Positions 16,301 through 19,300 of a DNA stretch of 64,000 bases are shown here, one piece after another. The notes below the pieces were generated by a model. The model was not told the origin of the DNA, searched no databases, and saw only the letters and a program-made list of their open reading frames with translations. The translations under genes and the position numbers were made by a program. Source of the stretch: Pempheris klunzingeri (lineage: Eukaryota; Chordata; Actinopteri; Acropomatiformes; Pempheridae). The stretch is from assembly GCF_042242105.1 (NCBI RefSeq), contig NC_092026.1, positions 20,920,691 to 20,984,690 of the forward strand. Reading direction: 5' to 3'. The first letter of the stretch is position 1. Each line of letters starts with the position of its first letter.

Positions 16301-19300
16301 TTAAGCTGTCCTATCTAATAAAAAAAATCTACAAAAAATAAGCCATATCAAAATAAAACTGAAGATAAGAAGATAGAAAACAAGGCAGTGGGTTTTTCTT
16401 TACAGGACAAATGAGACACTGCACATTTTTCACAGTAAAGGCTGAGATGTGAAAAAGATTTCTAAATATATGGAGTTCTCATAATAATCCCCGTCTGTCT
16501 CGCACTCTGAATGAAGTCGGTAGACATGTGCTGCTTCAGTGGTATATCTGGATGGCAAGTTTGGTATTACAGTAACTGCCAAGGTAAGCTGATTGATTCC
16601 CACTCGGGCCACACAGGCTAAAAATAAATGCACTCAAGGTACTCAAAGGTGCTCAGGATAAAAGCATTCACCAAAGGACTTTTGTTACTTTGCAAACAGT
16701 CTCACCTCCACATTAGTCTGTTGCCTTCACTCTAATCTTTGTGCGTATGGTGTTTATTCCAACAGATCTATGTTCAAACTTAATGGGTTTTAAATTAACC
16801 TGAGCAGCATTCGGTCGTTTCTCAGGGTCCCACTGCAGCATGTCTTTCATCAGTGCGATCGCCTCATTGCTGGCGTTGGGGATCAGAGACCTGAGGCTGG
16901 TGGGGACACACTTTGGGAAACGGAAGTTCATTGAGGTGGCCAGGTTGTAGCCTTCAGCCCAGTCCGACTGATGTGGTGGAAAACAAGAGGAAATAACAGA
17001 AGAGTCACAAAAAATTTCACAAGCAAAGAAAAAGCGGTTAAATAGTCTGACGGGCCCAAGCAGACAGGATGTCACTAAGATTTCAGAGATACTGTATCCA
17101 GAGCGTGATGAACTGATTTTGGTTGCACCACCATGACGGCAGAACCACAACATGTGACACCTGTTGTGATGGCTCACCCTCTTCAGCGTTCCCAGCACCT
17201 GGCAGATCTTGAAGATCTCGTCCACCTCGCTGTTGCCAGGGAACAGGGGTCTGAGCGTGTACAGCTCCGCCATGATGCATCCTACGGCCCAGATGTCGAT
17301 GGGTGAGCTGTAGGAGTTCGACTTTAGCAGAACCTCTGGGGCACGGTACCTGTGGTATCAGCACGGGAGTTAATGGAGCGCTTGCAGATAGTGATTTAAC
17401 TGTCCTCATGCTTAATGTACTAGGAGTCTTTTTAAGGTATGTGCTAAGTGATGTTACAGCTGGTGTTACATCAGATGGTGCTTCATCTATAAGAATTACT
17501 TTGGTAGATAGATACTTCATTTGTCCCCTTAGGGAAATTGTTCTGCAGCACAGTCACAAGGTATTTCATCACAACATCACAAAAGTCTCCATTAGACATG
17601 CCTGTACACATTCCCCGAACACATACTTTGTACCTTTGGTGCATGGCCTGTTTAAAAACTTTAAAAACGGCTTGTAGGACAACGATTGTGCAATTTACTG
17701 GCCGTTGTTACAATATTTTTCTTACATCTCTTACAGCAGATGATGCAGAGGGTTAAATTCAGCTTTCAGTAAAAGCTCAGTGAAACATCTGAAGCATTAT
17801 ATTTTGGCATTAAAACATTGCAATTTCTTCAAAAAATACATTCTTTGTGTACTTCAGTCCACAGGTCACCCATAAGGTTACAGTTAAGCACAATGGTAAC
17901 ATGCTTGTACTCTCCAACAGATTGTTTTGGCTCCCCGCTGCTAAAAGTGGGGTTAGACTGCAGCTTTCTGAAATCAGTGGGCATTTCTTTTGTTTTAGAG
18001 GTGTTTAGGAGAAAGTTGACTTCTCACACCAATTTAGGCCAACAATCTTCCTCCCCATCAAACAGGAGCCTAACCATCTGCGTGCTTAATAAAGTGCCTA
18101 CTAGGCCCACTGTACACTTCTCTGATATTATCCTGCAGATAAATTAGCCTCACCATCTTGTAGACACATAATCAGTGTACGGTGGCTGCGAGCGGATTTC
18201 CCTGGCTAGTCCAAAATCAGCTATCTTAACCAGCTCTGGGCCCATGCAGAGCAGGTTCTCCGGTTTCATATCACGATGGAAATACCCTGAAAAACACAAC
18301 ACAGTCAGATAAACTTGTGCTGATGCTTGTGTTCGTCTAGATTTGCATTATTCTCTCAAATAAAATAGCTATTGCCTCTAAGTTTCTACTACTGTTACAA
18401 ACACTGCTACTAATAATGACACGAATCTCTATTCGAGCATCACAATTTGATGTTTACTCACAACACAATAAAGATATTTTAAGCTGACAAAGCACAGTCA
18501 AGCCAAGCCTTTAAGGACACGCATAAGAGAAAGACAGGAGGAGTCTCTTACCGTGCTTATGCACAAATGCTAAGCCAGACAATACTTGGAACAGAATGTT
18601 CCTTATCTCATTTTCAGAAAACATCTTATCTTCCCTGGCAGCAGCAAAGTGGTAAAAGAAAGAAAGAAAGAAAGAGGGGATAAAGAAAAAAACGCTATGC
18701 AGACAATCATGTCTTACTGAAGTGGGAATGACACCAGCACCCACAAACACTAAAAACAGTGCCGAAGAGAAACTTGTTCAGTGAAGCTTTGGTACCACTC
18801 ACACCTCCTCTTCTCACTGAGGCACAGGAGCCGTGAGTCACTTCTGGCTTGAGACAAATCCTGTGATGCCTGATGTCTCAATCAACTGTCCTGCACTCAT
18901 ATACGTTTCAGGTTTAGATATCTTGCTTTCTCTTCACTCAGTTATGAAGTAGTCATACCAAGACGGCGCTGACAGCTTGACAACACAGTAGTTTATAAGA
19001 CAGAAAAGAGAGCAGCGTCGGTTTTTCTTTGCTGAAGTCACCTACCATGTGTATGAATAAAGGACAGTCCCTGTAATATTTGAAATGTCATGTTTCTGAT
19101 GACTGACTCAGGGAACAACTTGTTTCTGCAAAAACGAAGACCGACACATGATGACTCAATGTGACCCAAATAATTCTCACATTCCCGATGGTATTAAGAA
19201 AAAAACATGCTGCAGAATTATATCACAAAAATAACTCTGTGTACAAAGCTGGTAAAAAAAAAGGCTGAAGGAAAATGCACGTGTAGCTTTGCAGCCTGTT

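Follow-up and report, generated by a model that had tools for sequence, protein, structure and literature searches.

A probable pair of mutually exclusive exons in the kinase core of a fish mak gene

Can one kinase gene make two catalytic cores by choosing between two copies of the same exon? The question is raised by the mak gene of Pempheris klunzingeri. Male germ cell-associated kinase (MAK) belongs to the RCK family. The gene lies on the minus strand of the window, the whole stretch of 64,000 nt analysed here, which is part of contig C15 of a 646 Mb genome. A first-pass annotation of the window held that two exons (A and B) ahead of the catalytic loop are old duplicates of one another and that only one of them can be used at a time. 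We argue that A and B are very probably a genuine and ancient tandem-duplicated pair of mutually exclusive exons. On the genomic evidence, one mak gene can probably make two different kinases.

The coding blocks from position 20953 through the kinase domain align with human MAK and CILK1, which served as baits. The hallmarks of the RCK family (MAK and CILK1) were found with these human baits, namely the glycine loop, VAIK, HRD, DFG and the TDY motif. The kinase-domain and later coding blocks also match a second gene on contig C21. The coordinates are collected in Table 1.

Table 1. Features of the mak gene in the window
Feature	Position	Strand	Remarks
First coding part of mak	20852..20953	-	Glycine loop, VAIK lysine; block match
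Next coding block	19693..19749	-	Block match; exon ends approximate
Exon P, 122 nt	19311..19432	-	Kinase exon immediately upstream of the A/B pair
Exon A, 80 nt	19046..19125	-	LFPES-type alphaD-alphaE exon; 3' site ttttgcag, 5' site ATG/gtaggt
Intron between A and B, 411 nt	18635..19045	-	474 nt in the C21 gene
Pyrimidine tract, 53 nt, at least 90% C/T	18640..18692	-	Directly upstream of exon B
Exon B, 83 nt	18552..18634	-	Divergent copy, KMFSENE type, one extra codon; 3' site gctgccag, 5' site ACG/gtaaga
Exon N, 133 nt	18154..18286	-	Next exon: catalytic loop, DFG (DFGLARE), TDY motif (TDYVSTR)
Kinase C-lobe block	17178..17348	-	Block match; exon ends approximate
Kinase C-lobe block	16797..16967	-	Contains KRPNAAQV; block match; exon ends approximate

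The sequence, frames and splice sites can be read directly from the DNA. Exon P ends in ...LYQLMKE-R with its last codon split after two bases, and its 5' splice site is AAG/gtgaga. The coordinates, lengths and GT-AG sites that had been assigned to A and B are all borne out. So are their phases, since both exons are entered after two bases of a codon and left after one. The two are homologous with moderate identity, as had been claimed, with 14 of 26 aligned residues common to both; B carries one additional codon relative to A. When all 646 Mb of the genome are searched in six frames, the similarity between them has an E of 2.7e-4. Because that value is already genome-wide, a chance likeness inside one intron is negligible. 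Scored with splice-site weights on a scale to 12.6 bits, the 5' site of A reaches 7.7 and that of B 8.6, and the sites compared range from 6.9 to 12.5.

Four ways of joining these exons were tested. P+A+N and P+B+N both stay open, so each exon alone preserves the frame, as had been proposed. P+A+B+N and the double skip P+N are shifted out of frame and meet stops, in the C15 and C21 genes alike. The first-pass annotation was right that including both exons shifts the frame, but not that this adds 163 nt. That figure is the sum of A and B, and the gain over a one-exon message is 80 or 83 nt. Since double inclusion and double skipping reach stops, only single inclusion gives a kinase among the four joins. 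The Pkinase profile of Pfam scores P+A+N versus P+B+N at 114.6 versus 114.9 bits in the C15 gene and at 118.8 versus 118.4 in the C21 gene.

It had also been suggested that exon B be sought in the same intron of other MAK and CILK1 genes, and this was done within the present genome. The mak gene on C21 retains both exons (A' and B') in identical order and with identical lengths and phases. There P, A', B' and N measure 122, 80, 83 and 133 nt and the introns between them 221, 474 and 164 nt; the corresponding introns P-A, A-B and B-N of the C15 gene measure 185, 411 and 265 nt. The first six intron bases are alike in the two genes (gtaggt after A, gtaaga after B). A cilk1-like gene on C12 has the A type only. 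Its single A-type exon is flanked by introns of 79 and 93 nt, so there is no space for B.

The genome searches agree with this distribution. Exon A has six matches listed. Apart from itself they are the copies on C21 (88%) and C12 (73%), the exons of B type on C21 (59%) and C15 (58%), and a weak match on C16. The last was dropped because its catalytic segment is CDK-like by eye. Exon B has an 86% copy on C21 and no other B-type copy among the eight matches listed at an E of at most 10, a search that scores the best candidates only. Four of these eight are the mak exons and one is the cilk1-like exon; the remaining three are weak (E of 0.32, 1.05 and 7). The C12 gene is read as cilk1-like from its blocks, where identity to the human baits is higher for CILK1 in four of six, higher for MAK in one and tied in one; in one of the four that favour CILK1 the MAK alignment is longer. 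An ELO-family gene lies about 20-25 kb from it (G000:C12:3561097-3565196 and 3588242), which we take to fit the ELOVL5-CILK1 neighbourhood.

Naming the window gene is less simple. Identity is higher to MAK in four of six blocks (residues 1-34, 34-52, exon A and 165-221) and to CILK1 in the other two (52-93 and 277-291), with two further blocks excluded that aligned over different extents. The C21 gene is likewise mixed. TMEM14-like coding blocks lie at window 11613-12703 on the plus strand, convergent with mak, and similar blocks lie beside the C21 mak. A long open frame at 24344-25072 (+), reading MGLCYSLRP...THRLLLLG with a long glycine run, resembles the first exon of GNAL, and a piece of this frame had no Pfam match at an E of at most 0.001. 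Since block identity is mixed, the gene is named mak because its TMEM14-like and GNAL-like neighbours match the zebrafish mak interval, which includes tmem14ca, mak, gcm2, elovl2 and gnal (excerpt of PMC11273301). Two other observations concern the rest of the window. In an open frame at 1-498 (+) a short acidic motif occurs twice in diverged form (SADEENEIQTPVLESSDKGSSGKV and SADEKDEIKTHVLKSSDEGSSEKV). Open frames at 8825-9646 (+) look like pieces of WD40 repeats, e.g. LFSLRGHVTSLSVHPSGKLALSVGTDKTLR, and are perhaps PAK1IP1, which we place in the MAK neighbourhood.

How old is the pair? A and A' share 22 of 26 residues, as do B and B', while A and B within a gene share 14 of 26 in C15 and 16 of 26 in C21. 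The copies of each exon are closer between genes than A and B are within genes, which implies that the exon duplication predates the duplication of the mak gene. Both exons had been said to appear constrained, and the comparison of C15 with C21 upholds this at the protein level. Exon A has 16 base differences between the two genes, distributed over codon positions as 0, 2 and 14, and exon B has 20, distributed as 4, 1 and 15. Each exon has four residue changes. When the same substitutions were placed at random the mean was 10.5 residue changes for A and 12.2 for B, and about half of the trials made a stop. Not one of 20,000 randomised copies of A had four or fewer residue changes, and the result was the same for 20,000 of B. 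A dN/dS for each exon had been suggested too. The pN/pS of B is 0.057, but no dN/dS is given for this exon because its synonymous sites are saturated.

Synonymous divergence between the C15 and C21 genes (Nei-Gojobori) is a pS of 0.581 with a dS of 1.1 for exon P, a pS of 0.726 for A and of 0.785 for N, and above 1 for B. The mak gene duplication looks old, since synonymous differences are high to saturated. A TMEM14-like gene adjoins both copies. This fits an origin in the teleost genome duplication, without proof. Proof is lacking because the GKAP-family genes are distant and found on eight contigs, GCM is found on C21 only, and no further window frames matched the part of C21 compared. The GKAP-family genes on C15 (23.69 Mb) and C21 (13.71 Mb) are megabases from mak, and we consider them weak evidence of synteny at best. 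GCM was rejected as a marker; it occurs in one place only (C21, 22.28 Mb) and is therefore uninformative. Apart from mak and TMEM14, no window frame of at least 25 codons matched 189 kb of C21 at an E of at most 1e-4.

It is worth considering what the exchange would do to the protein. The segment had been described as a helix just before the HRD loop, and an alignment to CDK2 agrees, placing A directly before HRD in the alphaD-alphaE loop and helix alphaE. A corresponds roughly to CDK2 residues 96-122. Seven positions consistently distinguish the A type (three exons) from the B type (two exons): L/M, P/(S,T), S/N, (A,V)/E, I/V, Q/S and I/V. For A the two mak genes give a net charge of +1 and +3, for B one of -1 and 0. 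Both products would be intact MAK kinases, distinguished by their alphaD-alphaE loop and by helix alphaE, which leads into the HRD catalytic loop. The B form would have a more acidic segment, with seven fixed residues changed and one inserted. The catalytic motifs are encoded by other exons and stay the same. According to a large survey, mutually exclusive exons mostly exchange residues at the surface and near functional sites (excerpt of PMC7954323). From this we infer that the A/B swap most likely alters the docking of substrates or regulators, or the stability of the kinase, and not its catalytic residues.

Something must also keep the two exons apart, and the intron before B has an unusual feature. 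Its tract of at least 90% C/T is 53 nt long in the C15 gene and 79 nt in the C21 gene. Ten other 3' sites from the C15, C21 and C12 genes, a set that does not contain 'C21 ex3', have pyrimidine runs of 5-22 nt. The C15 tract is rich in words of the UCUU/CUUUC type. The last 120 nt before B hold 15 (C15) and 14 (C21) PTB-like words, versus 0-4 at the other ten sites, and these motifs were chosen after the tract was seen. On the coding strand the tract is the sole run of at least 53 nt in the 8.1 kb mak stretch of C15. In the 9.9 kb stretch of C21 two such runs are listed, 14 nt apart and both inside the tract before B'. The background rate of long pyrimidine runs is 0.70-0.95 per 10 kb per strand. 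The tract before B may point to pyrimidine-binding regulators, but it is suggestive only, since it was noticed post hoc and runs of this kind occur at that rate. The introns of the two mak genes are otherwise no longer alignable in the C15-C21 comparison, with only short words in common, mostly C/T-rich.

We argue that the simplest account is regulated choice together with removal of the out-of-frame products. We infer that the spliceosome would join P to either A or B, and then to N. Messages with both exons or neither would reach a premature stop and presumably be cleared by nonsense-mediated decay. The choice would most likely be set by PTBP-type proteins on the tract before B, or by competition there among U2AF, PUF60 and TIA1. 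Two other devices of exclusion found no support. Pairing between intron RNAs was examined in six intron pairs with 60 shuffles each, and between 7 and 41 of the 60 shuffles were equally strong; the method scores very long duplexes, so this is a weak test. Incompatibility of U2 and U12 sites is not supported either, since all 11 5' sites inspected by eye look like ordinary U2-type GT sites and no U12-type site was seen. A third device is steric hindrance, in which a distant branch point for B would lie near the 5' site of A in the style of OGDH 4a/4b. The long pyrimidine tract before the downstream exon is what OGDH has as well (excerpt of PMC7969005). However, the AG-free zone before B is 58 nt (C15) or 92 nt (C21) in introns of 411 and 474 nt. 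A usual branch point would thus be separated from the 5' site of A by over 300 nt, compared with a threshold of about 50 nt (excerpt of PMC7969005), and we consider this device the least probable of the explanations weighed here.

Exon B might be mainly a poison exon, whose inclusion alongside A shifts the frame and reduces MAK output through nonsense-mediated decay. Inclusion of A+B does lead to a premature stop in both mak genes. But a poison exon needs no kept residues, and the protein sequence of B is under constraint (third positions hold 15 of its 20 differences, four residues change, and 0 of 20,000 randomisations were as conservative), while P+B+N retains a full-strength kinase profile match. 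This makes the poison exon improbable. That B is an unused relic of the exon duplication is more improbable still. A zebrafish cDNA study makes no mention of B in the text available (excerpt of PMC11273301), as one would expect of a relic. Against this, the open frame, splice sites and residues have been retained in both gene copies, which are nearly saturated at synonymous sites. One can also imagine that both exons are used, but that the choice is noise and the proteins are equivalent. Both forms do score alike as kinases, and several of the helix changes are conservative (I/V, L/M). Yet the seven A/B differences and the extra codon of B hold in every copy compared, and only B is preceded by the special tract. 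We regard noise as unlikely, though less so than the poison exon.

Exon pairs of this kind have precedents among kinases. Exons 6a/6b of JNK (MAPK8/9/10) are, like the MAK pair, alternative exons of a CMGC kinase, and they are homologous and mutually exclusive. They differ in lying in the C-lobe after the activation loop, and in another gene family, whereas the MAK pair is at alphaD-alphaE before the HRD loop. Substrate binding is tabulated as different among several JNK forms (excerpt of PMC8699841). FYN is another kinase gene with tandem duplicated exons used either/or, but its pair spans the SH2-kinase linker and part of the ATP site (excerpts of PMC9741552 and PMC4465641). Outside the kinases, OGDH 4a/4b shares with MAK the either/or arrangement and an extended pyrimidine tract ahead of the second exon, and its choice responds to pyrimidine-binding proteins (excerpt of PMC7969005). 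OGDH differs in having distant branch points near the 5' site of its first exon, and the MAK intron geometry speaks against that arrangement.

The human MAK and CILK1 genes are known with the A type only. The pair is thus not universal and may be limited to some fishes. The retina-specific exon 12 of human MAK and exon 14 of zebrafish mak, which distinguish the known isoforms, lie outside the kinase core. These exons belong to the same gene but are included or skipped, and no homologous pair is described in the parts of the sources available (PMC9159943, PMC11273301). The zebrafish mak cDNA has 15 exons and its reported isoforms are only with or without exon 14 (excerpt of PMC11273301). Since this study reports exon-14 variants only, either zebrafish lacks B, or B is rare in its embryos or was overlooked. 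Zebrafish exon 4 holds R70 (excerpt of PMC11273301), which by residue count falls in exon P, so zebrafish exon 5 should be A or B. The first-pass annotation knew of no published description, and among the literature matches listed, which include an excerpt of PMC11412320, the pair is undescribed in MAK; supplementary gene lists could still name the gene. MAK as a whole word is absent from the main texts of four surveys (PMC9741552, PMC4465641, PMC5740500 and PMC7954323). Five exact sequence words of the exons were sought in the literature; two papers contained one of them, and both are unrelated by title.

MAK controls cilia in light-sensing cells, and its loss is associated with degenerating photoreceptors in mice, zebrafish and people (excerpt of PMC11273301). 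The pair lies in the catalytic core of this ciliopathy kinase. It has long been retained in two gene copies, which argues that the difference between A and B matters. Tentatively, and as a possibility we would not rate at even odds, we propose that the pair is a switch in the kinase core that arose before the teleost genome duplication. By way of helix alphaE, ciliated tissues (photoreceptors and germ cells, for instance) would pick one of two MAK enzymes that have different docking partners or are not equally stable. Pyrimidine-tract-binding proteins at the tract before B would decide, and in tetrapods the second form would have been lost or would never have existed. If fish do make two MAK kinases that are unlike in the catalytic core, expression and rescue studies with a single cDNA cover only half of the gene, and the two natural forms are a ready tool for the role of helix alphaE in RCK kinases.
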